A DNA stretch of 40,187 nt from a virus. Below the pieces are notes generated by a model. That model did not search any database. It saw nothing but the letters and a program-made list of their open reading frames with translations, and was not told the DNA's origin. The translations under genes were made by a program, and so were the position numbers. Below are positions 534 to 33,866 of the stretch, piece by piece. Numbering within the stretch: position 1 is the stretch's first letter; every line of letters starts with the position of its first letter. The stretch spans positions 1-40,187 of IMG/VR virus record IMGVR_UViG_3300005613_000160, one strand, 5' to 3'.

Positions 534-572
534 CTGTTTTTCTGGGGCCTATGTTTTTGATTGGAGCGAATA

Positions 573-7706: not shown

Positions 7707-7949
7707 GACCTAGACCTAAACCTAGACCCAGACCTAGACCTAGACCCAGACCAAGACCCAGACCCAGACCTAGACCAAGACTCAGACCAAGACCCAGACC
7801 CAGACCAAGACCAATACCCAAACCTAGACCCAGACCTAGACCAAGACCAATACCCAAACCTAGACCAAGACCCAAACCTAGACCCAGACCTAGACCTAGA
7901 CCCAGACCAAGACCTAGACCAAGACCCAAACCTAGACCCAGACTTAGAT
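7707..7949. repeat. Hexanucleotide satellite, about 40 units of ACCYAG
   Basis: About 240 bases of tandem 6-mers of the form CC(T/C/A)(A)(G/A)A, with phase kept throughout. The plus strand is almost pure A/C/G with isolated T, so the strands differ strongly in composition. There is a higher-order pattern (units with AATACC recur about 48 bases apart). All but one frame are open (Pro-Arg, Gly-Leu, Ser-Arg dipeptides), which is a trivial result of the repeat. It sits between two leftward genes and is probably expanded by slippage. Confidence 0.9.
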
Positions 7950-8630: not shown

Positions 8631-8663
8631 CCAGGGGGAGAGGAAACCTCCACTTTTTCTAAA

Positions 8664-8736
8664 TGGCTCTGTCGGGACTCGAACCCGATGATGCCCTATC
8701 ACTATCACTTTCAAAAATAGTTACCACACCAGAGCC
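8664..8736 (-). tRNA. tRNA-like gene with perfect acceptor and T-arm but no D-arm
   Basis: Exactly 73 nt. The acceptor GGCTCTG/CAGAGCC pairs fully with discriminator A, and the T-arm TCGGG-TTCGAGT-CCCGA is perfect and consensus. No D-arm can be formed. The centre pairs ACTATT with GATAGT around a TTTGAAAGT loop, consistent with a GAA (Phe) anticodon, with TGA (Ser) as a weaker option. The 3' CCA is not encoded. Either a D-armless tRNA or a decayed one; amino acid identity is uncertain. Confidence 0.5.
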
Positions 8737-8738
8737 AA

Positions 8739-8799
8739 CTACAGACCCAACCACGATTCCTTGCGATTGCTTTCCCCGATTCGTTGGAGTAGCCTGTAG
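8739..8799 (-). other. 61-nt stem structure next to tRNA-like genes
   Basis: Ends CTACAG (8739-8744) and CTGTAG (8794-8799) pair perfectly. Inside, CCAAC and GTTGG also pair. There is no T-loop or anticodon arm. It is probably part of the same relic array. Confidence 0.25.
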
Positions 8800-17949: not shown

Positions 17950-18043
17950 TTCCAAAGAATTTTGAGATATTCGGTAGTCATAACTAGGTATAATAGTTAG
18001 ACTTATGCGAATTCGACTCCAGAAATCTCAAAATTCTTTGGAA
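17950..18043. repeat. Perfect 19-bp inverted repeat around a promoter
   Basis: TTCCAAAGAATTTTGAGAT (17950-17968) and its exact reverse complement (18025-18043) flank 56 bases containing the GGTATAATAG promoter. No base mismatches. It could be a pair of regulator sites, a replication origin element, or recombination sites of an invertible promoter; no invertase gene is seen in the window. Confidence 0.75.
17981..18005 (+). promoter_or_regulatory. Rightward promoter/operator, copy 2 of shared 25-mer
   Basis: TATAAT at 17989-17994 in a 25-mer that matches 24 of 25 bases of 209-233, in the opposite orientation. TAACTA-GGTATAA-TAGTTA is a perfect 6-7-6 palindrome across the -10, so a repressor could sit directly on the promoter. 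Confidence 0.6.
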
Positions 18044-19867: not shown

Positions 19868-20081
19868 CTGTAATTGCAAAGGTAACTATCACTGTTTTGA
19901 GTGTAGTCCACCGGTCAAAACAGTCTTAGCTGAACTAAGCACAAAACACGACGAAACATCGATAGTATCCAAATCTATCATCGAGCTACTAGCGAAGCAA
20001 ATTGCTGATTGTCAACGTCATTGCGATAACGCTGGCATCTGTTTCGTTGCGTTCAACGAGCCAATTTTAAACCCTAGTTGA
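19860..20081 (+). CDS. Small Cys-rich hypothetical protein
   Basis: A 73-residue product with start ATG behind TAGGAGGTGTG. MNNCNCKGNYHCFECSPPVK holds four cysteines in a compact cluster (C-x-C and C-x2-C), probably zinc-binding, and CQRHCDNAGIC adds three more. The central stretch ETSIVSKSIIELLAKQIADC is helical. It is translationally linked to both neighbours. Not recognised. Confidence 0.55.
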   Translation: MNNCNCKGNYHCFECSPPVKTVLAELSTKHDETSIVSKSIIELLAKQIADCQRHCDNAGICFVAFNEPILNPS

Positions 20082-20095
20082 AGGAGATAAAGAAG

Positions 20096-20797
20096 ATGTC
20101 CGAGAAAAATCAATTTGATTTTCAAGATGGTAATGGTCTAGTACCAGCTTACCGCTATCGAAATCTAGATGGCTTATTGGGTGGATGGGTAGCCAATACC
20201 GCAAATGTATCTGCTTCTGCTCGTATCCATGGCAATGCTTGTGTCTATGGCAATGCTCATGTATATGACAATGCTTGTGTCTATGGCAATGCTCATGTAT
20301 ATGGCAATGCTCATGTATATGACAATGCTCGTATCCATGGCAAGGCTTGTGTCTATGGCAATGCTCATGTATATGACAATGCTTGTGTCTATGGCAATGC
20401 TCATGTATATGGCAATGCTTGTGTCTATGACAATGCTCATGTATATGGCAATGCTCATGTATATGACAATGCTCATGTATATGGCAATGCTCATGTATAT
20501 GACAATGCTCATGTATATGGCAATGCTTGTGTCTATGGCAATCATATATTGAACGTCGGTGAGCACAAGAGCTCTCCATGGTATATCCAGGGTCATTGCT
20601 ATTGGATTGGGTATGTCGCCCCCGGAATAGTTCGATCTGGCTGCATTCAAAAGCCGATTATTTGGTGGCTGGAGCACGTAGAGCGGTGTGCTGAAGAAAA
20701 TGAATATACTACTCAAGAACAGAAAGAGTATCGTTTGCACTTCGAGCACATAGCCGATTTGATGCGTTTGTACGATGTGTTTGAAGAGAACCAATGA
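20096..20797 (+). CDS. Phage left-handed beta-helix (hexapeptide repeat) protein
   Basis: A 233-residue protein, started at ATG behind GAAGGAGATAAAGAAG. Residues 1-40 (YRYRNLDGLLGGWVANTANVS) precede 18 hexapeptides of the form A-(H/C/R)-(V/I)-(Y/H)-(G/D)-N at about 42-149, which should fold as a left-handed beta-helix. The tail (YWIGYVAPGIVRSGC, then LHFEHIADLM) matches the C-terminal domain seen with such repeats in other phage proteins. The architecture is known in phages, the role is not. No acetyltransferase catalytic residues are visible. The repeats are almost identical in DNA, so the number of coils is likely to vary between isolates. Confidence 0.75.
   Translation: MSEKNQFDFQDGNGLVPAYRYRNLDGLLGGWVANTANVSASARIHGNACVYGNAHVYDNACVYGNAHVYGNAHVYDNARIHGKACVYGNAHVYDNACVYGNAHVYGNACVYDNAHVYGNAHVYDNAHVYGNAHVYDNAHVYGNACVYGNHILNVGEHKSSPWYIQGHCYWIGYVAPGIVRSGCIQKPIIWWLEHVERCAEENEYTTQEQKEYRLHFEHIADLMRLYDVFEENQ
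20219..20542 (+). repeat. Tandem 18-bp repeats, 18 units, within the beta-helix gene
   Basis: Units such as GCTCATGTATATGGCAAT differ at only a few positions (TATGGC/TATGAC, GCTCATGTA/GCTTGTGTC). Silent positions are as uniform as coding ones, showing recent copying rather than only protein-level constraint. Confidence 0.9.
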
Positions 20798-20816
20798 AAC
20801 AAAGGAGGATGATACA

Positions 20817-21224
20817 ATGAGTTCAAATCCTGTGCTTGGATCAAAACGATCTGCTAGCGATCGCGGGAAGCCAGATCGCATCAATCCTGATTGGAAATAC
20901 TGGATCTGTCCTGTGCGATGCCCAGACGCAAGAGGTATGCCAAGTTGGTTAAATTTGAACTTCACTTTTATGGCAAGGGGATTCGCGATGCTGCCAAATA
21001 AACAAGACGCCATGGCATCTTTTGTTGCGGCTGGGCTATTTAGCCTTACGCGGCTAGACACGCCCGGAGTGGGGCAACCCAGCTTGCCGCCGCAACAGGC
21101 AAAAGTGTACTCAGCACTATGCCGTATTGCGGAGATGTGTTCAGTGTGCGACCTCATTCTGCTCGAAAACGCATTTGACGGATTTGGTGAAGACGGGAAC
21201 CCACTAATTGAGGAGACAACGTGA
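20817..21224 (+). CDS. Hypothetical protein
   Basis: A 135-residue product started at ATG with an ideal AAAGGAGGATGATACA leader. N-terminal Lys/Arg-rich, then WICPVRCPDARGMPSWLNLN and CRIAEMCSVCDLILLENAFD; five cysteines and a hydrophobic helix FVAAGLFSLTRL. The ATG-side overlap downstream (GTGA) couples it to the short gene that follows. Not recognised. Confidence 0.6.
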   Translation: MSSNPVLGSKRSASDRGKPDRINPDWKYWICPVRCPDARGMPSWLNLNFTFMARGFAMLPNKQDAMASFVAAGLFSLTRLDTPGVGQPSLPPQQAKVYSALCRIAEMCSVCDLILLENAFDGFGEDGNPLIEETT

Positions 21225-21348: not shown

Positions 21349-21410
21349 GTGCCCCCCGTACACGCGTGGGAGGGAGCGAAACACCCACGGGAGAGTGGTA
21401 CGGGGGGCAC
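21349..21410. terminator. Perfect 13-bp GC-rich inverted repeat between converging operons
   Basis: GTGCCCCCCGTAC (21349-21361) and GTACGGGGGGCAC (21398-21410) pair exactly, with CGTGGG/CCCACG nested in the loop. It separates the rightward block from the end of the leftward tail operon. There is no T-run on either side, so it may be a two-way transcription barrier or a DNA-level signal rather than a classical intrinsic terminator. Confidence 0.55.
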
Positions 21411-21419
21411 TAAGCGAAG

Positions 21420-22148
21420 CTATATCTTTTCCCCTTTGAATGGATTCCTCCTATCTCGTTTTCTGCCAGATAGAAAGGTACGCAATCGCTGACTTCGTTC
21501 GGTTGCTTGACTTGGGATTGTGCCATCGATTCGCGGGGTGGTTCGACCGCACCAATTTTTTCCGCTCGGGCCCAAGTGGAGAACCTCAAAAGGTGGTCGA
21601 AGCTTGTCTGCCTTGTCCCACTGGGCCTGAAAGAAACTGTCGGCTCCACCTGCATGCTTCCAGTTCGTTTCATGCCATGGTGGATTTCCTAAGACTGGAT
21701 CATCACCATAGAAGACTTGGGTATATCCTGCCCATTCTCTCTGTTGCGTGTGCAAGGGAAATTTGCTCCAGTTGTTTGGGTTGGGTGGGATCGGTTGTGT
21801 CAAGTCAGATAACATTCTTCGCAAGGGGGTGTAAAGCTTTCCGTGCTCCCAATCGCAGTGAGGAAATTTTTTCGGCCAAAGAATGTCAACATCCATAAGG
21901 CAGATTAGACCCTCTCGACCAGACCAATCTAATCCTTGTTCAAGTGCTTTCCATTTGTTGAAATCGCAATCGTCATCGTAGAAAGCATTGGTACTAAAAA
22001 CCTTGGCATCGTTTGCGTCTGCTACTTCGTGCGTAAGAGTGTCTGTCAGAGTTGTGATAACCGTGACTTCGGAAAAGTGGTGGCGATTGTGTGGGAGAGT
22101 TATTGCTAGTAGATCACCGAATTCTACAGAAACGAGTAAGGCTTTCAT
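21420..22148 (-). CDS. Glycosyltransferase-like protein, GT-A fold
   Basis: A 242-residue protein. MKALLVSVEFGDLLAITLPHNRHHFSEVTVITT is the opening nucleotide-sugar strand, and GLICLMDVDILWP (residues about 81-93) contains the metal-binding DVD of GT-A transferases. The C-terminal half has aromatic sugar-contact residues (WAGYTQVFYGDDP, HETNWKHAGGADSFF). It belongs to a phage family seen in environmental genomes. It is the last gene of the leftward operon and overlaps the methyltransferase by 4 bases. Acceptor unknown; tail fibre or host glycan is inferred from context. Confidence 0.72.
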   Translation of the reverse strand: MKALLVSVEFGDLLAITLPHNRHHFSEVTVITTLTDTLTHEVADANDAKVFSTNAFYDDDCDFNKWKALEQGLDWSGREGLICLMDVDILWPKKFPHCDWEHGKLYTPLRRMLSDLTQPIPPNPNNWSKFPLHTQQREWAGYTQVFYGDDPVLGNPPWHETNWKHAGGADSFFQAQWDKADKLRPPFEVLHLGPSGKNWCGRTTPRIDGTIPSQATERSQRLRTFLSGRKRDRRNPFKGEKI

Positions 22149-22879
22149 TGGGATTCCCCCAGTTCAAAAAGACCTACTCCGCAAGATCGACCTCTCCAGT
22201 AGCGTAGCCATTGCTCGTGCGTCGATGCTGGATCGATTCCCCGGCATTCACGCTCTATGGATTCTTTGCTTTCATCGGTGTTAACATACTTGGTCACCGG
22301 AAGACTCGGGTAAGCTATCTTTGTTCGTTCGAAAGCTTCGACTGGGGCCGAGTCTTGAACGTCGTGCATGAAGATTTGGCTGTTGGGGCTCATTGAGCCA
22401 TAGTAGCAGTCGAAATCGGCATCGAAATGACACTTATCGCCGTCGATAAATAGAACATCGAGGGAATTTACCCAGTTCTTTACCTTGCGAACGATTCGCG
22501 GATCGTAACTGCTATCGGAAATCCAAAGGAATTGGATGTTTGGGAATGCATTCTCGAAAAGATCGGCGTAAGGAGTTCCACGGATTTCGCAAGCAATGAC
22601 TTTTTTGACTGTCGGAAAGCATTTGCACCAATGATAAAGACCGCCACCTTTGTCAGTACCGATTTCGTAGATGGTTTTTGGGTTGACTTCTCTGGCTTTC
22701 TGGATCATCCACTCTGTTTCTCGGACTCTTTGGAGAGGGAATAGCAGAGGATTGTCAAAGATGTCTTGATAGCTGTTTCTTCCGGGTTGTCTTGTGTGCT
22801 CAGACTCGAAAAACCGAGCCCAATAATCGTTGAGATCGGATGGGAGTGGGTCATCCCCAGTCTGGTATTTTGTATCCAC
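22145..22879 (-). CDS. Class I SAM methyltransferase (CmcI/Methyltransf_24-like)
   Basis: A 244-residue protein with the AdoMet-binding motif TIYEIGTDKGGGLYHW (residues about 69-84), an acidic second strand VIACEI, and the post-II segment DVLFIDGDKCHFDADFD followed by FMHDVQ, the arrangement of CmcI-like methyltransferases that often act on small molecules or sugars. ATGA-type overlap with the downstream glycosyltransferase. It probably methylates a sugar or glycan made by the neighbouring enzymes; the substrate is not shown. Confidence 0.8.
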   Translation of the reverse strand: MDTKYQTGDDPLPSDLNDYWARFFESEHTRQPGRNSYQDIFDNPLLFPLQRVRETEWMIQKAREVNPKTIYEIGTDKGGGLYHWCKCFPTVKKVIACEIRGTPYADLFENAFPNIQFLWISDSSYDPRIVRKVKNWVNSLDVLFIDGDKCHFDADFDCYYGSMSPNSQIFMHDVQDSAPVEAFERTKIAYPSLPVTKYVNTDESKESIERECRGIDPASTHEQWLRYWRGRSCGVGLFELGESQ

Positions 22880-22881
22880 GG

Positions 22882-23820
22882 TTATTCCTTTGCATTTCCT
22901 AGGTAGTTGGTGATTCTTTCGTGGGATTGTTCATCGAGCTGACTTCGATCAGTGACAATAAGCGTTTTATGGTCTTTGACTTTTGGGATTGCGATGCTTT
23001 GGTGGGTTATGCTCACGAGATTCACGCCGTCATTTTCCTGAGAAAGACAGCCTCGGGCTCTAAGCGGAATTCCGCAAGCTGGGCAATGGTAGAGTGCTTG
23101 GGGTGTATAGGCTTCCATGCTGTGCTTCCACCATCCGGGTTCGACTGGTACGCCTAGATCGGGATAGCTGTCTTCGTGCTGGTGTAGGATTGCTTGGGCC
23201 GCCGCTATCTCACAGAAATAGCCTCGAAGTTCTCCGCGAAATGGAGCAATCATCGCAGACCAGTGTTTGTTGATGTCACAATCGACAATCAGATTCCACA
23301 TTTCCTCTTCATTGTCGATTACGTCTTTGATTGCAATGTAGGGTGGGCTGTGCCTGCTATCATCTTTGAGTCCGAAGGGTCGTGACTCTGGCCAATCTCT
23401 TCTGAATTCGTCGAAAGCTTCTTTGTCTAAGTGCATGTTGAGGTTGGAGACCGAAGGATTAAAAGTTTCTCGGCAGTCTTTACCTTTTCCACGTGGGTGA
23501 TTTGACCATAGACCACATTTTTCCTGAGGGAAGTAGTCACGGAGAATCGAACATAGCTCGGTGAATTTTGGGTGAATCGTTGGGTTTCCGCCGATTAGTC
23601 CGACGATACCGAAATAGTTTTTGAGGGAATCACAAGCTTGGATGAACTGGGGTATGGTTATGAATCCGAAGTTCCCGCCGAAATTGCTTCCTTGCGTGCA
23701 ACCCCAGCAAGCGTTTTCGCAAGCCCTAGTGACCCAGATTTGTAGAACACCACCGAGCGGTTTGCATTTTCGTCGCTTCGACGGTGGAACCATCTTTAAG
23801 ACTTGGGCTTGTTTATCCAT
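22882..23820 (-). CDS. Radical SAM protein
   Basis: A 312-residue protein with the radical SAM cluster CENACWGC (Cys34, Cys38, Cys41: Cx3Cx2C), preceded by the usual first strand LQIWVTR and followed by VGLIGGNPTIHPKF, the GGE-like AdoMet motif. Near residue 245 HCPACG and RARGC supply further cysteines that could hold a second cluster or zinc. The fold is a partial TIM barrel of ordinary length. It overlaps the glycosyltransferase upstream by 8 bases. An oxygen-sensitive enzyme in a tail operon is unusual. Likely a sugar or peptide modification within this cassette. Confidence 0.85.
   Translation of the reverse strand: MDKQAQVLKMVPPSKRRKCKPLGGVLQIWVTRACENACWGCTQGSNFGGNFGFITIPQFIQACDSLKNYFGIVGLIGGNPTIHPKFTELCSILRDYFPQEKCGLWSNHPRGKGKDCRETFNPSVSNLNMHLDKEAFDEFRRDWPESRPFGLKDDSRHSPPYIAIKDVIDNEEEMWNLIVDCDINKHWSAMIAPFRGELRGYFCEIAAAQAILHQHEDSYPDLGVPVEPGWWKHSMEAYTPQALYHCPACGIPLRARGCLSQENDGVNLVSITHQSIAIPKVKDHKTLIVTDRSQLDEQSHERITNYLGNAKE
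23520..23529 (+). repeat. TTTCCTGAGG repeat inside radical SAM gene
   Basis: Exact copy extended to TTTTTCCTGAGGGAA. Read as CCT CAG GAA (PQE). A one-mismatch copy (TTTCCTGAGA) lies at about 23034 in the same gene. Confidence 0.5.
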
Positions 23821-24850
23821 AGTTTGCTCTCGTGTTTTCGATGTCGATCGCTAGTCGTTTGCCGATTGCTCGATAATCGTAGAATCGTTTGGCTTTCTCG
23901 GCAAAGTATTTTTGGCGTTCGGGATTATAGGTGGCAGCCAAGTCTAGAAGCTTCTCTCTGACTTCCTTGCTTGGTGTTTGTGGGTGAATCCTTTCTAAAT
24001 TGTCATCTATCTCAGGAAGAATCTCGTCGGAAGGTAGGTCGGTCAAGACTCGGCATCCACAAGCTGTTGATTCCATAAGTTTGCGGAGTGTGTAACCCAT
24101 GAAACTGCTTGTGCAAATCGAGACTTTGTATTCGCTCAGTAGCTTTAGAAAGTTCGGCGTATGACAGCCTCGAATATGGTATCCAGGGTGTTTCAAAACG
24201 TCTATTTCCGCTTGGAAATCTTGAGCTAGCCTTTTCCTCAGGGGGTAGTAGTTGGATATGGCTCCAGACAGTAGGATTTCTTTGTTACGGCGGAATGAAT
24301 ACTCAGGGACTATCGTTGAGTCAAGGCTGTGATAAGTTCGTATCAAGTGCCTGGATCGAACGTAGGGAGCTAACCGCTTTACGATTGCTGGATGATAATA
24401 AATGATCCAAGCATGGCAGTCGATTTCCTTAGCTGATTGTCTGTGATACTCTTGTCTGTGATGTGCATCTTTGAGGATCGTAAGTTTGAAGATGCTTGGC
24501 TGGTTGGCTAGATGTTCGACATTGGAGAATCGGGCATTGCTCGGTCGAAAGTCTTTGCGTCCTACGTCCCATTCTCTTTTGTCCTGGAGAACTACGATGC
24601 CGGGTGATGTCCTTTGTAGAATTTCTTCGGTTGCTGTTGTGTTGATCTTCAAGTTTTTACCACAAAGAGTGTAACCAGCGAACTGTAGGCCAGAAGCTAT
24701 TTGCCATCCTTCGTCGGTTGTGTGGTTTTTCATGGATTCGATGGCCATCATAATCCCATTGTCTTTTGCTCCAGAATATGTGGGTGCTTGAAGTAGCTGA
24801 CTGCCATTCTCTAGAAGATCAGTTAAGACTTTGTCCACATTCCAAGTCAT
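23813..24850 (-). CDS. Glycosyltransferase, GT-B fold (group 1-like)
   Basis: A 345-residue protein; I start it at MTWNVDKVL, whose ATG overlaps the cytidylyltransferase stop as ATGA, rather than at the longer frame upstream. The C-terminal half has the GT-B donor site: KEILLSGAISNYYPLRKRL, HTPNFLKLLSEYKVSICTSS, and the E-x7-E-like KLMESTACGCRVLTDLPSDE. The N-terminal half has HAWIIYYHPAIVKRL. This fits DUF3880/CgeB-like or group 1 transferases of phages and spore coats. Sugar and acceptor are unknown. Confidence 0.75.
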   Translation of the reverse strand: MTWNVDKVLTDLLENGSQLLQAPTYSGAKDNGIMMAIESMKNHTTDEGWQIASGLQFAGYTLCGKNLKINTTATEEILQRTSPGIVVLQDKREWDVGRKDFRPSNARFSNVEHLANQPSIFKLTILKDAHHRQEYHRQSAKEIDCHAWIIYYHPAIVKRLAPYVRSRHLIRTYHSLDSTIVPEYSFRRNKEILLSGAISNYYPLRKRLAQDFQAEIDVLKHPGYHIRGCHTPNFLKLLSEYKVSICTSSFMGYTLRKLMESTACGCRVLTDLPSDEILPEIDDNLERIHPQTPSKEVREKLLDLAATYNPERQKYFAEKAKRFYDYRAIGKRLAIDIENTRANYG

Positions 24851-25254
24851 AGCCTGCCCCTTATGTCTGTTGTGGATACGCCTTGCGTGTACGGGATGCG
24901 AATTAGACGTTTGTTGTTGTTGGTAACCCAAGCCTCTAAGTCAAGATGTCTTTGTTCGCTTCCCCAGGTGTCTCCGACAAAAATGATATCTGGACAAATG
25001 GCAAAAAGATTCCCAAGAAAGTCTAGGGTATCGTATGAGATAGCAGTTGATACGTAGCGTAGAGATTCGAGCATCAAAATACGTTCTTTCAGCGGGATTA
25101 CTGGTAGTCTGTTTTTGTCTTGAAAAACCACTTTATCACTGGGGACACCAACAACCAACTCATCGCAGAGTTCCGAAGCCCTACGCAGAATGTTGACGTG
25201 CCCAACGTGGAGCAAGTCCCAAACTCCAGGAATGTACCCGATCGTTATTGACAT
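24847..25254 (-). CDS. Cytidylyltransferase (TagD/glycerol-3-phosphate type)
   Basis: A 135-residue nucleotidyltransferase of the HxGH family. GYIPGVWDLLHVGHVNILRR contains HVGH at residues 16-19, VVGVPSDK gives the third strand, RLPVIPLKERILMLESLRYV is the family helix, and the C-terminal GVSTTDIRGRL is the TagD/GCT signature (RTEGISTT-like). It should make a CDP-activated alcohol such as CDP-glycerol, CDP-ethanolamine or an ADP/CDP-sugar from CTP. It overlaps its downstream partner by ATGA. The LicD-like gene two places upstream could use the product. Confidence 0.87.
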   Translation of the reverse strand: MSITIGYIPGVWDLLHVGHVNILRRASELCDELVVGVPSDKVVFQDKNRLPVIPLKERILMLESLRYVSTAISYDTLDFLGNLFAICPDIIFVGDTWGSEQRHLDLEAWVTNNNKRLIRIPYTQGVSTTDIRGRL

Positions 25255-25805
25255 GAGAACACCATGATCTTTCGGTGCTTTTTTACCTCTTGAATATTGT
25301 CTACGTCTGCCGATGCGTGGAGTTGATAAGGCATACTGTAGTTTTCTTCAAAGATTTTGGTGTCGAGAATCCCTAAGTCATAGACGATGAAAGCTTTTGC
25401 CTTGGTGCTTTCGACGTATTTTTTCGCGAGTTGAAGATAGTATTCTGGTTTGATTAAGACTAAGAAAATACCGCCAAAGATTACAGCATCGAATTGCTTT
25501 TCGACCGGTGGCTCTTCGATTCGTCCAACAAGAAACTCTTTGTCTGGATACAATTCTTTTGCTCGACTTATCGCAACTTCTGAACCGTCGATCCCCAAGT
25601 ATTCGGAAGTGATTAACGGAGCCAACCATCCTTCACCGCAAGCAACGTCCAAGCAGTTATAGTTTTTGTTGTTGACCCAATCAGCGATGGGCTTATGGAA
25701 AGCCTCGCGAAACTCCGGTGAATAAAGATACCAGTAGTAATCGTCGCTATAGACTTCGTTCAACTCGTTGGTAGACTGGTTGATATTAAGCATTGAGGAA
25801 GTCAT
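25245..25805 (-). CDS. Class I SAM methyltransferase
   Basis: A 186-residue methyltransferase. YNCLDVACGEGWLAP (residues about 49-62) is motif I, YLGIDGSEVAISRAKELYP is motif II, and FDAVIFGGIFLVLI is motif III/IV, followed by the helix YLQLAKKYVES. The start follows AAGGGATCAAAG and overlaps the LicD-like gene by 20 bases. It ends 10 bases into the cytidylyltransferase gene. Small-molecule or sugar methylation is likely. Confidence 0.8.
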   Translation of the reverse strand: MTSSMLNINQSTNELNEVYSDDYYWYLYSPEFREAFHKPIADWVNNKNYNCLDVACGEGWLAPLITSEYLGIDGSEVAISRAKELYPDKEFLVGRIEEPPVEKQFDAVIFGGIFLVLIKPEYYLQLAKKYVESTKAKAFIVYDLGILDTKIFEENYSMPYQLHASADVDNIQEVKKHRKIMVFSCQ

Positions 25806-26367
25806 CTTTGATCCCTTCTTTTTCGACGAAATTGTAGACTCTGGTTTGGCTTATGTGGTCAAGCTTTTGGGTTTTCCAGTCTTTGCCATACTCTCGTTCC
25901 AGGTAGATTTCTATATCTCTTGGGATTTGGAAGCTTCGATTGAAGAGAATAGTGGGTTGGTATTCTTCGAGAAGCTTTGCTTCGTGAACGATTGCGTAAG
26001 GTTCGGGAACTGTTGGGTGTACTGGGCTACAAGTGAATCGAAGATCTTTCCAGGTCATTTGACCGACGATATCAACGTGGATGCCATACTTCCAAGCTAC
26101 AATGGTTCTGACTTGGTGAAACGGTAGGCTGAATGTCTCAATTTGGTAGTCTGAATTTATGAGTGTTGTTATAAGGGGCAGGACTCTTACCGTGAGATTT
26201 TCCTGGAGGATACCGAGATCGATGTCGGCTTCCGTTGGGGTGAACCCACGATCTCGATAAGCTCCGAGGGCGGTTCCTTGGATCAGGAAGAATGGGATGT
26301 TAAGATTTTCGAGGATGTCGGAGGTTTCTAGGAGAAGCTTTTTTCCGTTTGTGAAGTTCATTGTCAT
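25786..26367 (-). CDS. LicD/fukutin-type nucleotidyltransferase-fold transferase
   Basis: A 193-residue protein with the LicD pattern: PFFLIQGTALGAYRDRGFTP (Gly31-Thr32, with the R-x-x-GF) and the DxD EADIDLGI (Asp48, Asp50), then HVDIVGQM as the third acidic strand and IPRDIEIYLEREYGKDW, the C-terminal motif of LicD and fukutin-related proteins. These enzymes move a phospho-alcohol such as phosphocholine or ribitol-phosphate from a CDP donor to a glycan. The TagD-like gene is adjacent but one, so donor synthesis and transfer are both encoded. Overlaps the upstream glycosyltransferase as ATGA. Confidence 0.83.
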   Translation of the reverse strand: MTMNFTNGKKLLLETSDILENLNIPFFLIQGTALGAYRDRGFTPTEADIDLGILQENLTVRVLPLITTLINSDYQIETFSLPFHQVRTIVAWKYGIHVDIVGQMTWKDLRFTCSPVHPTVPEPYAIVHEAKLLEEYQPTILFNRSFQIPRDIEIYLEREYGKDWKTQKLDHISQTRVYNFVEKEGIKDDFLNA

Positions 26368-27047
26368 TTGATTAGCTTCGTTGCGTCGAAGTCTTCCCCA
26401 CGAAAAGAGTTGGCTAGCGGATGTCTTGAGTTTTCTAGCGTGGTTTTTTCTCCCGTGTGTTGTACGAGCGATGGGAGATGAACGTACTCGGTATGCTTTA
26501 ATCTTCTGAAAGCCTCGATGACAGCACCGTCTAAGCCTTTGATTCTTCGTGGTCGAGTTGATAGCTTATCAACCATGTTCTTAGATTGCATGAGGGTGGT
26601 CACTACTTTGTTATCGAAGACTAGAGCGACGGCACCTTTACCGCGTTGATCGGATGGATGCCATCCTTCCGTATTGCCGCAAAGCTTCTCATTCTTTGGG
26701 AATGTGTAGAGGTTCCAGTAGCTTCGCTCTTTGTACTCGCATCCTTCGAGATAGGTTTTGAGGTTCGGGTAAGTCACGAAGTCATCTTGGAAGATTGCAT
26801 ATCGATCGGCATAGGGATTGCGGATGTGGAGTTCCCAAAGAGCTAAGAACCAATTACCGACGATCGATATTTTCGGGTAGTGTACGGTTCTCTCCAAGTC
26901 GAATCGATCGTAGATGCTTGGATCTTTGCAATTGTCGATGAATAGCCTGGGCTTGTCGAACCTTGCTTTGCATAAAGATGCTAGAGTTCGCGGAAGCAAA
27001 TCGTCTATTCGTTCTGGAACTGTTGTTACGCCGTAGGCCCATTTCAT
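26364..27047 (-). CDS. Glycosyltransferase-like protein, GT-A fold
   Basis: A 227-residue protein, started at MKWAYGVTTVPERIDDLLPR where the ATG overlaps the previous stop as ATGA. The opening strand is followed by RLFIDNCKD and, at about residue 100, RYAIFQDDFVTYPNL, whose QDD is the metal-binding DxD equivalent of GT-A enzymes. Aromatic segments (YWNLYTFPKNE, KGAVALVFDN) complete the fold. A longer frame upstream overlaps the Cys-rich gene and has no ribosome site. It is probably the first enzyme of the decoration cassette after the tail fibre gene. Confidence 0.7.
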   Translation of the reverse strand: MKWAYGVTTVPERIDDLLPRTLASLCKARFDKPRLFIDNCKDPSIYDRFDLERTVHYPKISIVGNWFLALWELHIRNPYADRYAIFQDDFVTYPNLKTYLEGCEYKERSYWNLYTFPKNEKLCGNTEGWHPSDQRGKGAVALVFDNKVVTTLMQSKNMVDKLSTRPRRIKGLDGAVIEAFRRLKHTEYVHLPSLVQHTGEKTTLENSRHPLANSFRGEDFDATKLIK

Positions 27048-27337
27048 ATTATTGACTCCAGTAGCGTCTCTTTCTTTCGTGCTTTGCGAATTGCTTGCTT
27101 TAGGATTGTCCTGCCCGCTATTCTTAGGAAAGGTAATCCCCGGATATTGGCTTCTTCTTCTAGCCAATCGACGATTAGTTCTAGGTTTCGTTCGCACCAA
27201 TCGCATCCTTGCTGATTCATGAGGGTTGCTCTGGCATTGCATCGGCATCCCGGTCTTTGTGGGATATGCAATCGCTCAAAGATTCTCTTCAATTCGGTTC
27301 CAGGGCCGCTATGAGTTCTCTGTACGAGTGCATTCAT
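27044..27337 (-). CDS. Conserved Cys-rich phage protein near tail fibre
   Basis: A 97-residue product with the pattern GPGTELKRIFERLHIPQRPG, CRCNARATLMNQQG, CDWCERNLELIVDWLEEEA and RGLPFLRIAG. I recall this family in many environmental phages, typically GxGTELKxLLxxxGIxxxxGCxCxxRAxxMDxxGxDWCExN. Cysteines at about 31, 33, 45 and 48 probably hold zinc. It lies between the collar protein and the glycosyltransferases and overlaps both by a few bases. Its function is not known; position suggests a fibre maturation or assembly helper. Confidence 0.72.
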   Translation of the reverse strand: MNALVQRTHSGPGTELKRIFERLHIPQRPGCRCNARATLMNQQGCDWCERNLELIVDWLEEEANIRGLPFLRIAGRTILKQAIRKARKKETLLESII

Positions 27338-29529
27338 TACTTGTATCTTTGTCGAAAACGTAGGACATAGAATGGTGGTCGGTTATCGCTTGTCGTATGC
27401 TGTGCATGTTGGGTGTCTGTTGTTCCCGATACATTGTCGTTATGGTTATTGGTGTTTGTCAGGACTGTGAGAGTCGGGGCAGTCCCTAATGGTTCTTCTG
27501 CTTCAACTGTTCCGTGGGCATCGTGGGTGTGGGTTGTGTGCTCTGTATGTGTGTCATGGTCGTTTGTTCCTGCCCCGTGCGATCTATTGCTTAGACTGTT
27601 TGGGCCCGCTACGGTCAACTCATCCGATGGGGTGTTGGCTGCTGGAGCCGGATCTCCAATACACATGGGGAACCGAGATTGCATATCGATGGTACCGTTG
27701 GACCCATCACACCAGTCCCAACCTTTAGGAAGAATCCCGTTAGTTTTGGAAGTCATTACGATGTCACCGATTTTGGAATTCAGATATGGGGTTAAGCATC
27801 TCCAACCACCTGATCCTCCTTCTGCCGTATAACATGCTATCACATCGTCTTCATAAATGTCTGGGTCAAAGTCTTCATCTCTGTCGGCCCTACGTCTAGG
27901 CAACGTAACTCCGATTTCAGCAGTACCAAACTCATCTTCAATGTTGTTTCCTAGTCGGTCTGATATTTGACAGGTTACTTGGGGCTCGCGAAATTGGATG
28001 ATAGCTCCACCGTAAGGATCAGTCCAATCAGCTGTGGCCTTCATATAGGCTATGCCTCCGTTTGACAAATGTTGAAGCACAAACCAACCTTCATCGACTG
28101 TTGATCCATCTATATATTCTTCATGCCACACCAGCAATACATGGTCATGCTGTCGCATCGTGTAACCAACATTATTGTCTCCGTGCCCAGCCCCCGGATG
28201 CCTATTTTGTACGCCTACGCCCGTTCCGCTTTCTGGGTCATAAGCTGTATATCGGGGCGAAATATCCCAAGTACCGCCTATCTCTGTTATCACGCGGGCA
28301 TCAAAGGTGTCATCGGTGGCCCGTACTATCATACCATTAGAGCCGTTGGAAACTATGTTAAGATTGGCCAAACACATGTTAGCCACTTGCTGACAGTTGA
28401 CTGCTTGATAGATGCCTAATTCATCGTCCCAAACAGCCAAGCCACGGCACCCAGAAATAGCCCGAGAAAATTGCCACTTGGTCGTAGCACCAGGGCTTTG
28501 AGTACCGCCCATGTCATAGATTATCTCTGTTGCTCCCGGATCAGACCCATGGAAGTAAGAATCTACATCGGCACTAGCAGATCGTGTTTCAGACGGGAAA
28601 ATACCACTAACAGAAAAATCAGATGTTAGCGTAAAACGTATGAATCGTGCTCTGCCTTCCCCTTCAATCATTACGAATTCCCAACGATCCAAGGCGTAGT
28701 TGAATTCGATTTTGCATTTTGCATTATCCGGGCCCTCCAAACCCCAAGGATTATAGACTGGAGTAAGAACTTCTCCAGCATTGTCTGTGGGATCTTTACC
28801 TCGAATAGCTGTTACGTTATCGACATCCCCTTCAGTGTCTGTAGAAAGTAACTCCTCGTACAATAGTGCGTTGCAACGTATACTTGGTTGTTGTGGATAG
28901 ACCACCACCCAATTTCCTGAGGAAGTCTTGCAAATGACAATCCACATGTGTTCATCTACGTCAAACTCTCCCACGTTATAAACAGTCTCAGACTCGCCAG
29001 TCGCAACCATAAGTCCCGAGACTTCATCAATGTAGTAAGTGTCGCAGGTTGCAGAGCCCGGTTCATCGTCGATCAAGGTTCCGTCTGTATCGTTATCATC
29101 GAGAAGCGGGATGCCCCCTTCTGGAGTTCGTGCAATCTTTGTATTAGTAGATTCAGAAATGGGGGTCACCCAATGTCCGCTTTTTGTTTTTGTAATAACG
29201 ATCCAAGTATTTTCAGGCACATCCGTTGTGGATACGTTATAGACTGTCTTCTCAAGTCCCGTATAGGGTTCAAGTTCTTCGCTGTCCCAAGAGATTCGCC
29301 AGATGGTGCAATCGGCGTAGCCGGGAGCATCATCCGTCAACACTTCCGTGTTCTCTGTCAGTGCAGGGATGCCTCCCTCGGGCGTGCGTGCTACGTATGT
29401 GTGTGATGCTTGGTAGACGTGCTCTTCCCCGGCAGCTAAAGGAGAACCACGCATAACCTTATTGAGATCACGACGAAGCTGATTGACGAATTCTAGGTCT
29501 TCATTCGTCAGGTTATATTGTTTGGACAT
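27337..29529 (-). CDS. Tail collar/fibre protein
   Basis: A 730-residue structural protein started at ATG behind GAGGTAATTTG. The C-terminal part is a tail collar domain: GDIVMTSKTNGILPKGWDWC with the G-(W)-x-x-C-D-G core, IDMQSRFPMCIGD, and the terminal RPPFYVLRFRQRYK. Between them a His/Thr-rich stretch (THTEHTTHTHDAH) could bind metal ions, as in long tail fibre tips. The N-terminal third carries two direct repeats of a module that reads ARTPEGGIP, about 100 residues apart (residues 48 and 135). Middle domains are beta-rich. It is a likely receptor-binding or fibre-tip protein and a candidate target of the glycosyltransferases encoded directly after it. Confidence 0.83.
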   Translation of the reverse strand: MSKQYNLTNEDLEFVNQLRRDLNKVMRGSPLAAGEEHVYQASHTYVARTPEGGIPALTENTEVLTDDAPGYADCTIWRISWDSEELEPYTGLEKTVYNVSTTDVPENTWIVITKTKSGHWVTPISESTNTKIARTPEGGIPLLDDNDTDGTLIDDEPGSATCDTYYIDEVSGLMVATGESETVYNVGEFDVDEHMWIVICKTSSGNWVVVYPQQPSIRCNALLYEELLSTDTEGDVDNVTAIRGKDPTDNAGEVLTPVYNPWGLEGPDNAKCKIEFNYALDRWEFVMIEGEGRARFIRFTLTSDFSVSGIFPSETRSASADVDSYFHGSDPGATEIIYDMGGTQSPGATTKWQFSRAISGCRGLAVWDDELGIYQAVNCQQVANMCLANLNIVSNGSNGMIVRATDDTFDARVITEIGGTWDISPRYTAYDPESGTGVGVQNRHPGAGHGDNNVGYTMRQHDHVLLVWHEEYIDGSTVDEGWFVLQHLSNGGIAYMKATADWTDPYGGAIIQFREPQVTCQISDRLGNNIEDEFGTAEIGVTLPRRRADRDEDFDPDIYEDDVIACYTAEGGSGGWRCLTPYLNSKIGDIVMTSKTNGILPKGWDWCDGSNGTIDMQSRFPMCIGDPAPAANTPSDELTVAGPNSLSNRSHGAGTNDHDTHTEHTTHTHDAHGTVEAEEPLGTAPTLTVLTNTNNHNDNVSGTTDTQHAQHTTSDNRPPFYVLRFRQRYK
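28913..28922 (+). repeat. TTTCCTGAGG repeat inside collar gene
   Basis: Exact copy. Read as TCC TCA GGA AAT (SSGN), the same frame as in the helicase gene. Confidence 0.5.
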
Positions 29530-29533
29530 CAAA

Positions 29534-29998
29534 TTACCTCGGTACTACACACAGAGAATAACGGATCGTTCCTGAGAGAGAACAGATCTCAATCGTCGAA
29601 GAATTGACTGGGCAGAATCTTGCCGATTCCTTCGGGGGAATTATGAGGCCATCGGAACCATTGAAGCGAATGACAATTGCTTGTCTTGAGATTGCTTCTT
29701 TCTCTCCATCGGAAGGCACTCGCATCAAGTCAGTGCCGGCTTTGTTCTGAATAAAGACGGTCCCGACGTTTACTTCTAGCCATCCAGTGTCAAGAGGTTC
29801 CCATTCTTCACCAATCTTCTTTTGGCGTTGGTAGGGTTCATCATCGCTTTGGAGATCGCGAGTGAATCGGCCTACATACTCGGCAATTCCACTTTCGATT
29901 GTGCGATGATAAAGAGTCTCTACAATCGTTAAGCGTGGGATAGGCTTCTTTGGCTCTGGATAATCTTCGATTCGCTGTTGGACTTCTGGGATATCCAT
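29534..29998 (-). CDS. Tail-associated structural protein
   Basis: A 154-residue protein, started at MDIPEVQQR, which has a GGGAGCGAACCT site; a TTG 11 codons upstream has none. It contains RLTIVETLYHRTIESGIAEY and IQNKAGTDLMRVPSDGEK, with a beta-rich remainder. By position between the tape measure cluster and the collar it should belong to the distal tail or baseplate. No signature. Confidence 0.6.
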   Translation of the reverse strand: MDIPEVQQRIEDYPEPKKPIPRLTIVETLYHRTIESGIAEYVGRFTRDLQSDDEPYQRQKKIGEEWEPLDTGWLEVNVGTVFIQNKAGTDLMRVPSDGEKEAISRQAIVIRFNGSDGLIIPPKESARFCPVNSSTIEICSLSGTIRYSLCVVPR

Positions 29999-30020
29999 AG
30001 GTTCGCTCCCTAAGAATTTG

Positions 30021-30446
30021 TTAAACTTCAAACGCCTCTACGAGCACAACCACCGAAGCGGTATCTGCTTTAAAACATAAAGAATTGGTACTGGGTCCAC
30101 TAGTCCCTACGCCTGTTCCGAATTCTTCTGAAAGATAACGGGACAATCGCAGAACAAAAGACTCACCAGGCAAGGCTTCCCCGAGCGGGAAGAATGTGGC
30201 TGACTCTGGATCCCAGATTCCGTACTCCACGAAATTGGTATCATCTTGGTTCTGGATTCGGCATAGTCCTGGGCTCGTTAGTTCGCTAAAGTCAACATTG
30301 GTTCCAGCCGTTGTTACCGTAAGGGCTCCAGGGACTGGTCCTTTCTCTCCGGCTACGTCGGCATTGAACTGAGTTGGCTTGGATGCGTAGTCGATATTAC
30401 CGACCTTCACTTGGAGTGATGCTCTTACGCTTGCTTCATTTGCCAT
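30021..30446 (-). CDS. Tail-associated structural protein
   Basis: A 141-residue protein with GGGAGAG site. VRASLQVKVGNIDYASKPTQ and PGLCRIQNQDDTNFVEYGIWD, with FVLRLSRYLSEEFGTG, suggest a beta-sandwich like those of small baseplate or neck proteins. Start and spacing fit the surrounding operon. Family unnamed. Confidence 0.6.
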   Translation of the reverse strand: MANEASVRASLQVKVGNIDYASKPTQFNADVAGEKGPVPGALTVTTAGTNVDFSELTSPGLCRIQNQDDTNFVEYGIWDPESATFFPLGEALPGESFVLRLSRYLSEEFGTGVGTSGPSTNSLCFKADTASVVVLVEAFEV

Positions 30447-30461
30447 GGCTATACTCTCCCG

Positions 30462-31373
30462 TTATAGGGTTGTCGGAATTCCTAACTGTAGGAAATCCGA
30501 TTCTTCATAATACTCTGGAGTGATCTTGTGTATATCATCTCTGTTTTCTGCTACATTTCCATCGCCGTCGAGGGGCATTCGCGTCCCAAGATTCTCATCT
30601 GTCCAGTCTTTGTTTTGTTGGAAGTTTTCAATCTTTGTTTTGTCTCCATCCTTTTTCAAATGCCTCGTGCCGGAGTCTGCAATTTCATAGTCGAAGGTGT
30701 TGAAGTCAATGTCAAATTCAAAATCGCGGGTGTAGTACACATCGCACAAGCCCCAATAATGTCGTTTCCAAGACACGTTTGAAAGCTTGATACATCGAGC
30801 AGGCAACCCCCACAACTCTGCATCGTTGACTGTATCAACCATCTCGGAGAATAGGTCTAACTCTAGAGTGGCAACAGTTTGACCGATTGTTACGTTAGGT
30901 CTGTTGTCATCGACTTCAACACTTAGTTTTTCATGGCTTGATGATAGGATCGCTTTTCCGGGATCAACCGGTTTGTCGGCACGCTCAAAGAAAGCCTCTT
31001 TCGTAAACTTCGTGAAACTGCCACTGACTCTTTGAGGTTCTATGAGGGGATTTTCAACTCGCTCATCTTGGCATCGGCGAATCGGTTTCGTGCTGAATTT
31101 GCTAGTGATTTCCCAATAATATCCTGGCTCGTTTTTGGGTTGCTTGCGATAGACTTTTACTTCTTTCGTTGGCCAACATGTAGCATAAGCATCGTAATCA
31201 CCGCCATAATTCCAGGCAGAACCTACTTGAGCTAGACCGACTACATCGTGAGCATTCAGTGGGCCTTGGTTTAGCGTGTCCATGCGTACCAATTCGGTGA
31301 GCGAGTAAGTACGATGACTGTCGGCATCGACTTGCAAACTCCAAGCTAATCTTCCTACTACACTACCAGCCAT
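30462..31373 (-). CDS. Tail-associated structural protein
   Basis: A 303-residue protein behind CGGAGCAATACT. Repeated aromatic-rich beta segments (AWNYGGDYDAYATCWPT, WKRHYWGLCDVYYTRDFEFD) and a C-terminal acidic part (GDGNVAENRDDIHKITPEYY). Lying directly after the tape measure gene, it occupies the usual place of the distal tail protein, but the sequence does not show a Dit signature. Probable structural component. Confidence 0.65.
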   Translation of the reverse strand: MAGSVVGRLAWSLQVDADSHRTYSLTELVRMDTLNQGPLNAHDVVGLAQVGSAWNYGGDYDAYATCWPTKEVKVYRKQPKNEPGYYWEITSKFSTKPIRRCQDERVENPLIEPQRVSGSFTKFTKEAFFERADKPVDPGKAILSSSHEKLSVEVDDNRPNVTIGQTVATLELDLFSEMVDTVNDAELWGLPARCIKLSNVSWKRHYWGLCDVYYTRDFEFDIDFNTFDYEIADSGTRHLKKDGDKTKIENFQQNKDWTDENLGTRMPLDGDGNVAENRDDIHKITPEYYEESDFLQLGIPTTL

Positions 31374-31388
31374 AGTATTGCTCCGCTT

Positions 31389-33866
31389 TTACAGGGATCT
31401 TCCGAATTCCGCTGCTTCAATTGCCTCTTGCTCTTGCAGCGTATCTCTAATTTCTTCCATCGTCGTTAGCATCTTATCTTGGGTTGTCTTTCCCCCTTTT
31501 TTCGCGTCAAGTTTTCCGACAAGATTGTAATACTCAGAAGTCCCAACCTTTATGCCTCTAGAAGCTGTTGTTGGTCCTGGTCCTGCTGTTGTGACTTTCT
31601 TACTCATCCCACTTTGGTAAGTTGCGAATGCTCTACGTGTTGCTTGCCTCGCATCTCTAATACTTAAGGGATTCTCTTCTAGCTTTGTCAATCGCCTTAG
31701 CTCATTGATCGTTGCTCTCAATCGTTGTGCGGGAGTCTTATTCTTCTCAACAATATCGGCAACACTCTTTTTGTCTTTTTGGGCTGCTCTTTCTGCTTCC
31801 TGCTTTAGCTTCTTTGTAGCCGCGATTTCCTTTTCTTTCTTCGTTAGAATCTCATCTTGGATACGTAGTTGCTCTATGAGTTCGCCATTAACATTTTGCT
31901 GTTCAAGTCGATAGATACTGGCTTCTCTCGGGAGCATACCGACAGTTTGCACTTGCATCTGATAAGTCGTAAGCAATTCTTCTGCCGTCTTCTTCAACTC
32001 TGCTTTCTTTGCTTTTACTCTTTCAAGGATTTGTCTTTGTGCCTCAAGCGAATCTTGTTCAGCCTTTGCTGCATCTTTGGCTGATTTGTTCAATACAGAA
32101 TCTCGAAGTTTCTGGAGTTTTTGAAGTTCGTTTTGAGCGTCTTTAAATCCCTGGATGAGAGGTGCTGTTGTATCGGTTCCGAAAAGGTATTCTGAAGCAC
32201 TTGCGGCGTAGCTTTGGTTTGCCTTTTGGACGAGGGCTTGTCTTGCCCTTTGTTCTGCGTTTACTAGTTGGTTTTTCTGTGCTTCAATTGTCCGATCAAT
32301 TTCGCTTAGCTGTCTTGGCCCTTCCATGCCCGCTAATACATCAAGGCGTCTGTCGAATGCCTCAGATGTATCTTTCGTTGACTTGTCCATTTCAGCATTC
32401 ATAGATGCAACTGCCGAACGACCAACGGCATACAGAGCTATAAGAGCTGTTAAACCAACAGTCCAGGCATTGAATAGTGAACTAACAGGCAATTTCAAAG
32501 TGTTCATTGCGAGTTTCATAATGCCGAGACTTTTAATGATCGTTCCCATCGCCATAAGCAATGGACCCGTAGCAGCAACAGCAAGTCCGATATTAGTCAC
32601 CCAAGATTTTGTTGTATCGCTGAGGGATTGCCACCAGGCTGTCAGTCGCTTCAACTCTTCACCAAGGGCTAACAATTTTGGTCCTAACTGTTGGCCGATA
32701 CTTGCAGCAAAGTTTTTGATGTTGTTCCAAACGATTTTCATTTGATTAGCGAATGACTCCATTTGCTTATCAGCAACTTCTTGTGTGGTCCCTCCCGCCC
32801 TTCTCAATTCTCTCTCATACTCTTTGATTGCTTCACTAGTCCCAAGCAATGGCAGAATAGCTTGCTGTACTCTTGCCTCAAAGCCGAGCATGTCAAGTGT
32901 CACAACTTTTGTTTGGTTACTCATCCCGGCTAAAATGTTTTCCAGATTTCCAATAATGTCTCCGAGGTTTCTCATTTTGCCTTCGTTGTCAAATACAGAG
33001 AAACCTAAACGCTTATGGGCTTCGGCATTGTCCATAGACGAGTTTGACAACAACCGAATGACTCTATCAAGTTGATTACCCGCTAGCTCTGCTTTGACTC
33101 CCTGATCGGCAAATGCAGCCAATACAGCAACACCCTCCTCAATATCTTTGTTGAATGCCTTGAGGGATGCTCCAGCCTTACTTGTCAGAGCAATCGAAAA
33201 TTGCTCAACACTAGCATTGGCTAGTGTGTTTGCTTTGACGAGTACATCACTGACACGTACAAGATTCAGCATATCTTGTGTGACGTTGTCTTTTACAGAC
33301 ATGCCCAAAGCACTTTGAGCATCCGTCAGCAAATCAGTAGCGGTTGCCATATCGAAAGCACCCGCTATAGCAAAAGCAGTCACTTTCGGAAGCAATGCCA
33401 TTGACTGTGCAGCATCTTTACCGGCCGATGCAAGATAGAAGTACGATTGAGCTAAGTCAGTGGCACTCTTAGACGATTCACCGCTAAGACTGATAGCAGT
33501 CTGTCTCATCTGCTCTGTTTGTTGCTGAGTCACTTTCATAATCGAAGTAGACTCGGTCATAGCCTGATCGAAACGTGCAAACTCTCGGACAGCCAATCCA
33601 CCGAAGATTGTCAGAGGCGTCGTAAGTCGCATGGTGAGAGATCTACCGATAGAAGATATTTGGCCGCCAATCTTCTTTAGTCGGTTCGCTTGCTGCTCGA
33701 TTACGCTAGTCATCTTTACAAATTGACCGGCAGTATTTCGATAACGGCCTTGAGCATCCCGAGTGAATTTCTCGGTATTTGCTTGTGCCGTCTTCATTGC
33801 TTGAGAATACTGTTTGGTATCCCCAACAAGTTTGACAGTCAATTTATCGACTACGGTAGCTGCCAT
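31389..33866 (-). CDS. Tail tape measure protein
   Basis: An 825-residue protein with strong site (CGGGGAGAATAAATA). The N-terminal half matches the phage TMP core domain (TIGR01760-like): LTMRLTTPLTIFGGLAVREF, DLAQSYFYLASAGKDAAQ, TATDLLTDAQSALG, LTSKAGASLKAF and GVKAELAGNQLDRV. Two hydrophobic stretches near 430-480 (WVTNIGLAVAATGPLLMAMG and LTALIALYAVG) and a long coiled-coil region (about 560-690) follow. At about 0.15 nm per residue it predicts a tail near 120 nm. It overlaps the tail chaperone gene's stop by one base. Confidence 0.94.
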   Translation of the reverse strand: MAATVVDKLTVKLVGDTKQYSQAMKTAQANTEKFTRDAQGRYRNTAGQFVKMTSVIEQQANRLKKIGGQISSIGRSLTMRLTTPLTIFGGLAVREFARFDQAMTESTSIMKVTQQQTEQMRQTAISLSGESSKSATDLAQSYFYLASAGKDAAQSMALLPKVTAFAIAGAFDMATATDLLTDAQSALGMSVKDNVTQDMLNLVRVSDVLVKANTLANASVEQFSIALTSKAGASLKAFNKDIEEGVAVLAAFADQGVKAELAGNQLDRVIRLLSNSSMDNAEAHKRLGFSVFDNEGKMRNLGDIIGNLENILAGMSNQTKVVTLDMLGFEARVQQAILPLLGTSEAIKEYERELRRAGGTTQEVADKQMESFANQMKIVWNNIKNFAASIGQQLGPKLLALGEELKRLTAWWQSLSDTTKSWVTNIGLAVAATGPLLMAMGTIIKSLGIMKLAMNTLKLPVSSLFNAWTVGLTALIALYAVGRSAVASMNAEMDKSTKDTSEAFDRRLDVLAGMEGPRQLSEIDRTIEAQKNQLVNAEQRARQALVQKANQSYAASASEYLFGTDTTAPLIQGFKDAQNELQKLQKLRDSVLNKSAKDAAKAEQDSLEAQRQILERVKAKKAELKKTAEELLTTYQMQVQTVGMLPREASIYRLEQQNVNGELIEQLRIQDEILTKKEKEIAATKKLKQEAERAAQKDKKSVADIVEKNKTPAQRLRATINELRRLTKLEENPLSIRDARQATRRAFATYQSGMSKKVTTAGPGPTTASRGIKVGTSEYYNLVGKLDAKKGGKTTQDKMLTTMEEIRDTLQEQEAIEAAEFGRSL

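Follow-up and report, generated by a model that had tools for sequence, protein, structure and literature searches.

Why would a phage carry a row of glycan enzymes directly behind its tail fibre gene? The question is raised by the virus record IMGVR_UViG_3300005613_000160, a stretch of 40,187 bases that was analysed whole and is called the window here. In it, eight leftward genes running from 27047 to 21420 follow the genes of a tail fibre or collar-like protein and of a small Cys-rich protein (CysR). An earlier note, made without database searches, had proposed that these eight genes form a dedicated pathway which builds a methylated, phospho-alcohol-bearing glycan and attaches it to the tail fibre or to host surface polymers. 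Our survey shows that the window cassette represents one form of a swappable gene set which dozens of environmental phages carry behind their tail genes. We favour, with a probability of roughly one half, the reading that it is a tail-linked and probably late protein glycosylation cassette, whose soluble enzymes glycosylate the phage's own tail fibre in the cytoplasm.

Gene order and signals of the operon

The genes follow one another in the order fibre, CysR, the glycosyltransferase GTA8, a LicD-family transferase, a methyltransferase (MT), a cytidylyltransferase-like enzyme, a putative GT-B glycosyltransferase, a radical S-adenosylmethionine (SAM) enzyme (rSAM), a CmcI-like methyltransferase and the glycosyltransferase GT1 (Table 1). 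All eight frames from GTA8 to GT1 are open and intact and are joined by ATGA or by overlaps of 8-20 bases, apart from a 2-base gap between rSAM and the CmcI-like gene. ATGA junctions are read at CysR/GTA8 (27047), GTA8/LicD (26367) and cytidylyltransferase/GT-B (24850), and fibre and CysR have a common stop/start at 27337. The remaining overlaps amount to 20 bases for LicD/MT, 10 for MT/cytidylyltransferase, 8 for GT-B/rSAM and 4 for CmcI-like/GT1. With GT-B starting at the ATGA of 24850, the longer mechanical open reading frame (ORF) start at 24931 is unnecessary; the tail fibre gene probably starts with the ATG at 29529.

A hairpin without a T tract, situated just 3' of the final stop codon of the cassette, likely marks the end of the transcription unit and would then act as its terminator. 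A promoter scan gave sites no more frequent than in shuffles. Both the composition and the codon-position GC of the cassette resemble those of the remainder of the phage, and hence there is no sign of a recent foreign block.

Recurrence of the cassette behind phage tail genes

Single-sequence scans of viral contigs with rSAM, LicD and CysR came back empty, and most relatives were reached only by alignments of at least two sequences; the loci are fragments, sampled non-randomly by peptide patterns. The cytidylyltransferase scan led to an unrelated viral contig, L002, and its near copy L003, where seven of the eight cassette proteins recur together at 38-51% identity in a shuffled order; the clustering is thus more than chance. 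An rSAM alignment scan yielded 25 viral loci and one cellular locus (L030). A GT1 homologue is present at 22 of the 23 distinct rSAM loci tested, and in each of the 47 loci with both genes (duplicates included) the two are co-oriented and rSAM comes first. No match to rSAM, GTA8 or CysR was found among the isolated phages of GenBank.

GTA8, used independently as the query of a further scan, led to 83 loci. We retained 80 of them, and together with the window these make 69 non-redundant viral loci. Tail-gene homologues are found on the same strand upstream of GTA8 in 53 of the 68 non-redundant loci with at least 6 kb of upstream flank, and the tail-region gene g29534 is 5' of GTA8 on the same strand wherever it occurs (47/47), which supports the dedicated, tail-coupled glycan pathway of the earlier note, here taken to be cytoplasmic. 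That note had also suggested a check for co-occurrence across phage and environmental genomes. In the GTA8-anchored set, which was not chosen by rSAM, rSAM indeed co-occurs with GT1 (17/3/2/29, p 1e-8) and with GT-B (16/4/1/30, p 1e-8), values that overstate the significance, as do our other Fisher tests, since the phages are relatives of one another, collapsed only where GTA8 was at least 90% identical. The CmcI-like methyltransferase occurs in 5/20 GTA8 loci with rSAM and in 0/31 without it.

Three layers are seen in this architecture. The first travels with the tail and comprises g30462, g30021, g29534, fibre, CysR and GTA8; homologues of the window's tail fibre stand upstream of GTA8 in many loci. 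The second is a core of GT-B, rSAM and GT1, present in about 40% of the GTA8 loci with enough downstream sequence. This core moves as a unit, since it is also found in phage contigs lacking a GTA8 match and is inverted in L087. The third is a variable cargo. Downstream of GTA8 it consists of methyltransferases, GT2, epimerase, UDP-glucose dehydrogenase, DegT aminotransferase and C-methyltransferase genes; by eye, sulfotransferase-like, PAPS-reductase-like and CMP-sugar-synthetase-like genes belong to it as well. To this cargo we also count the window's LicD/MT/cytidylyltransferase trio, a rare insert: complete, it was found only in the window and in L002/L003, and LicD as an anchor in the locus scan returned known loci only, so that the phospho-alcohol branch looks rare.

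Some of these loci show further variants. A CMP-sugar-synthetase-like protein (by eye) stands just before GTA8 in a related phage (L016:6930-7604) and suggests a nonulosonic acid cargo in the same slot. Downstream of a CysR-GTA8 fusion of 919 aa, an HldE-like nucleotidyltransferase is followed by a heptosyltransferase-like gene, named by eye (L103:14559-15891); the cytidylyltransferase-like protein of L103 was considered as a member of the phospho-alcohol branch and set aside, since it looks HldE-like instead. In L114, the virus record of L002, no plus-strand ORF of at least 90 aa closes after 11131, which suggests a single very long gene that from about this position leaves the fetched stretch or the record.

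Table 1. Positions of the cassette, its hairpin and the tail genes upstream in the window
Feature	Coordinates	Strand	Basis or remark
Hairpin	21349..21410	-	13-bp perfect inverted repeat, 21349-21361 with 21398-21410; -38 kcal/mol; z -5.85
GT1, GT-A glycosyltransferase (predicted structure)	21420..22148	-	constant rSAM partner; AlphaFold2 (AF2) pLDDT 95
CmcI/rhamnosyl O-methyltransferase-like methyltransferase	22145..22879	-	PF04989 5e-4, PF13578 8e-3, both under cut-off
Radical SAM enzyme (rSAM)	22882..23820	-	PF04055 5e-6, 2 bits under cut-off
Putative GT-B glycosyltransferase	23813..24850	-	PF13524 E 0.06; conservation
Cytidylyltransferase-like enzyme	24847..25254	-	PF01467 3e-17
Class I SAM methyltransferase (MT)	25245..25805	-	PF13847 2.8e-8, PF08241 5.9e-8
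LicD-family phospho-alcohol transferase	25786..26367	-	PF04991 8.7e-7
GTA8, GT-A glycosyltransferase (predicted structure)	26364..27047	-	tail-coupled member; AF2 fold; invariant D88 D89
CysR, small Cys-rich protein	27044..27337	-	proposed adaptor between GTA8 and substrate
Tail fibre/collar-like protein	27337..29532	-	phrog_8469 tail fibre 0.0035; proposed acceptor
g29534, conserved tail-region gene	29534..30031	-	5' of GTA8, same strand
g30021, conserved tail-region gene	30021..30446	-	recurs in GTA8 loci
g30462, conserved tail-region gene	30462..31373	-	recurs in GTA8 loci
Tail tape measure protein	31389..33866	-	phrog_1533 2.5e-71

Enzymes of the cassette

Although GTA8 and GT1 are named by none of PHROGs, Pfam and NCBIfam, both are GT-A glycosyltransferases according to their predicted structures, and the fold confirms the earlier call for each. 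The GTA8 model (predicted local distance difference test, pLDDT, 87) is matched best by POMGNT1 (Z 17.9 over 214 residues) and also by GnT-I (Z 16.9), both GT13, and its DD, preceded by Q or E, is invariant among 11 homologues, but there is no Pfam match. GT1 resembles K4CP (chondroitin polymerase; Z 15.1), GalNAc-T2 (Z 13.5) and TarP (Z 12.9), with D86 and D88 invariant in 20 homologues. The conserved acidic residues of the two proteins are putative metal ligands; a profile comparison of GT1 with GTA8 gave no sequence link. A CysR-type domain is close to GTA8 in 47/69 loci, counted by profile or by motif, the motif share of the count being loose. It is fused to the N-terminus of GTA8 in L022, L024, L026, L028 and L103 and to the C-terminus in L012, and is free-standing in the window and L027.

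The enzyme classes assigned by the earlier note are clear for the cytidylyltransferase, MT and LicD, whose PF01467, PF13847 and PF04991 matches all score above cut-off, and good for rSAM, while the CmcI-like and GT-B assignments are weak. PF04055 is matched by 24/24 rSAM homologues, and the cluster motif CxxxCxxC of the radical SAM superfamily (C34, C38, C41) is invariant in 24 sequences, as are four more Cys in the C-terminal half (C181, C203, C246, C249). The GT-B assignment rests on conservation, with many residues invariant in an 11-member alignment, because PF13524 is its sole match; no sequence relative of rSAM, GT1 or GT-B was found in the PDB at the limits used.

LicD reaches 29.7 bits with PF04991 against a cut-off of 22.6, matching only 37 profile positions, and the NCBIfam Mf1 cholinephosphotransferase model at 1.7e-13, far under its cut-off. 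The DxD nucleotidyltransferase-type acidic residues of the family (D48, D50, D99) are invariant in three homologues. LicD is kin of Mf1 and of the fukutin-type transferases (PMC11982090); its direct profile match with fukutin-related protein is not significant. The cytidylyltransferase had been called TagD-like, which is a loose label. Its PDB profile matches (3elb 1e-21, 5x3d 2e-20, 1coz 2e-15) place TagD behind ethanolamine-phosphate cytidylyltransferase and the hydroxyethylphosphonate-cytidylylating Fom1 domain (PMC6697681). HxGH is kept, and IPYTQGVST stands where TagD has RTEGIST, changing the motif Arg to Tyr; with TIGR01518 at 54.8 bits against 165.4, membership of the TagD glycerol-3-phosphate cytidylyltransferases was rejected. 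So was a lic phosphocholine pathway, as the nucleotidyltransferase belongs to PF01467 and no cassette protein matches PF12804 (LicC type) or a choline kinase family (LicA). Candidates for the phospho-alcohol head group are ethanolamine, choline, glycerol and a phosphonate; the position of MT beside the cytidylyltransferase would suit methylation of phosphoethanolamine.

Site of action and candidate acceptor

A hydropathy scan found no membrane helix in any of the eight cassette proteins, and at least two helices in only 2/231 cargo proteins; the acceptors should therefore be cytoplasmic, that is, virion proteins, DNA or host precursors. Mucin-like tracts (at least 60% Ser/Thr across 30 residues) are present in 7/346 ORFs within 6 kb upstream of GTA8, all of them fibre-position genes of relatives, compared with 0/781 other plus-strand ORFs (p 2.5e-4). 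The sole cellular rSAM relative found, 51% identical, is that of L030, a Chromatiaceae metagenome-assembled genome, where it follows flagellin and a Maf-type PF01973 gene and is accompanied by GT2 genes and a methyltransferase, a protein-glycosylation setting. Only rSAM is common to this flagellin island and the window: flagellin and Maf genes were not found among the scanned window proteins, nor were GT1, GT-B and GTA8 homologues detected in L030. A search through 369 genomes belonging to the same class as the L030 organism found the enzyme in that organism alone, and hence it does not name the phage host. The fold neighbours of GTA8, POMGNT1 and GnT-I, act on glycoproteins. Taken together, the soluble enzymes, the Ser/Thr tracts and the flagellin setting make the fibre the favoured acceptor, with odds that are about even.

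Several observations weigh against the fibre, besides the inflated p values given above. The window's own fibre is without a mucin-like tract (best 30-residue window 37% Ser/Thr), and low complexity of fibres often has other causes. In L002/L003 the module stands with neither GTA8 nor a detected adjacent tail gene, and this partly provides what the earlier note had named as refutation, homologues lying apart from a tail fibre gene, although the record may be incomplete. Moreover, the tail-adjacent glycosyltransferases of pelagimyophages were read by their authors as modifiers of the host O-chain (PMC7029224).

The last two points also speak for a different role, in which the enzymes alter cytoplasmic precursors of host lipopolysaccharide, capsule or S-layer glycan and thereby hide the receptor, so that superinfection is blocked or loss of progeny to debris prevented; the linkage to the fibre would then mean that the functions of binding and masking the receptor are inherited together. 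The nucleotide-sugar and sulfotransferase-like cargo varies like surface glycans, and LicD enzymes occur in surface glycan and glycolipid systems (PMC11982090). However, a flippase, bactoprenol transferase or membrane transferase of the gtrABC kind was not found in the cassette. The gtrABC operons of O-antigen conversion are likewise phage-borne and contain glycosyltransferases, but use a bactoprenol-linked flippase (PMC3688519), and a GtrABC-like reading was rejected, since all eight cassette proteins are soluble and none is a GtrA-type membrane flippase. Neither the CysR-GTA8 fusions nor the fixed place behind g29534 and fibre would be expected for host-surface modification, and the position in the tail operon seems to fit virion modification better. 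We regard it as a serious though less probable alternative.

It is improbable that rSAM instead modifies the fibre or CysR protein itself as a peptide maturase, with glycosyltransferases following later as in the pathways of glycosylated ribosomally synthesised and post-translationally modified peptides. A weak similarity to the peptide maturases SbtM (in 12/24 homologues) and HxsC (in 6/24), the four extra invariant Cys, which suggest an auxiliary cluster, and the S-glycosyltransferases SunS and ThuS in the GT1 Foldseek list point this way, but the arsenosugar enzyme ArsS is just as weakly similar (11/24), no precursor-peptide gene was seen and, where a cut-off is shown, all scores are far under it.

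Hypermodification of DNA or nucleotides against restriction is very unlikely. In its favour, phage glycosyltransferases, methyltransferases and radical SAM enzymes are known from DNA hypermodification, and the window has a separate DNA methyltransferase gene (1903-2913). Against it, the cassette stands in a tail operon, relatives have sugar-nucleotide enzymes, the scanned window proteins yielded neither a hydroxymethylase nor any other base-modifying partner, and LicD together with a cytidylyltransferase is not known to take part in DNA pathways.

Comparison with known systems

The earlier note held that known phage cassettes do not usually combine these enzyme classes, which was overstated, as tail-fibre islands of pelagimyophages with glycosyltransferases and radical SAM cassettes had already been published (PMC7029224). 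The window shares with that host recognition cluster a variable region of the structural module with a tail fibre and several glycosyltransferases, and rSAM cassettes occur in some pelagimyophage genomes. However, in pelagimyophages, which are T4-like myophages, the island is flanked by vrlC and gp14, whereas in the window a compact overlapping operon follows a single fibre gene; its first transferase is fixed and has a Cys-rich domain as partner, and it includes the LicD/cytidylyltransferase branch. What the present analysis adds is an architecture recurring in many lineages, together with the link of CysR to GTA8, the rSAM/GT-B/GT1 core and the rare phospho-alcohol branch.

For the mycobacteriophages Che8 and Rita, PMC11256854 (citing Freeman 2023) reports phage-encoded glycosyltransferases proposed to act on the phages' own virion proteins, and capsid glycans that were found; there the genes lie near the genome 3' end and the capsid is the acceptor. 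In mammals, cytidine diphosphate (CDP)-glycerol is a product of PCYT2, and a glycan bound to protein receives glycerol phosphate through fukutin (PMC8587909). The window resembles this alpha-dystroglycan pathway in enzyme logic, having a GT-A enzyme with POMGNT1 as its nearest fold, a PCYT2-like cytidylyltransferase and a LicD-superfamily transferase; the likeness is one of working, an analogy and not family membership, and does not extend to glycerol or ribitol phosphate as the group transferred.

Proposed pathway and its meaning

For fibre glycosylation, we infer the acceptor, the order of steps, the sugars and the phospho-alcohol as follows. In the cytoplasm of the infected cell, soluble enzymes would build or extend a short glycan on the tail fibre. 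GTA8 may add an early sugar, with the CysR domain anchoring it to the fibre or to the assembly of the fibre, and GT-B and GT1 would lengthen the chain. The constant pairing of rSAM with GT1 suggests that rSAM remodels a sugar or nucleotide-sugar which GT1 then uses, and the two methyltransferases could cap or tailor residues. From the inserted trio, the cytidylyltransferase would make a CDP-activated small phospho-alcohol, MT possibly methylates its head group, and LicD would transfer it to the glycan. The enzyme classes thus point to a methylated, phospho-alcohol-bearing product. A wider picture, which we offer only tentatively, is that a widespread group of uncultivated phages shares a modular soluble assembly line for mucin- or dystroglycan-like glycans on their own fibres, with a Cys-rich adaptor that keeps the first transferase at the fibre, an unusual sugar made by rSAM, and cargo swaps that vary the outer decoration, here by the CDP-phospho-alcohol branch.

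If the fibre is the acceptor, the receptor-binding proteins of many environmental phages bear exchangeable glycans made by the phages themselves. Tails would then diversify by enzymes as well as by changes in sequence, in a way that host prediction from genomes would miss. The rSAM/GT pair is a testable new enzyme couple without a curated family, and the gene set forms a compact system for co-expression with a candidate acceptor at hand.

Neighbouring features

Next to the cassette, on the opposite strand, a 239-aa protein (20078-20797, +) consists largely of NAxVYGNAxVYDN repeats, encoded in part by an 18/36-base tandem array (20229-20542), and looks like a left-handed beta-helix protein. Minus-strand ORFs of 327 and 170 aa at 20067-21157 were discarded as shadows of this repeat gene. 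Paralogous phrog_5931 proteins are encoded at 561-1937 (+) and 16382-17866 (+), and in L015, L022, L024, L025 and L028 the glycan cassette is closely followed by homologues of them. Elsewhere in the window, a tandem array of 13 copies of an 18-base unit (7707-7943) occupies a stretch without an obvious gene, a tRNA-Lys (TTT) gene (8663-8749, -) lies in a gene-poor stretch, and a 19-bp perfect inverted repeat with a 56-base loop (17950-18043) is situated between plus-strand genes.

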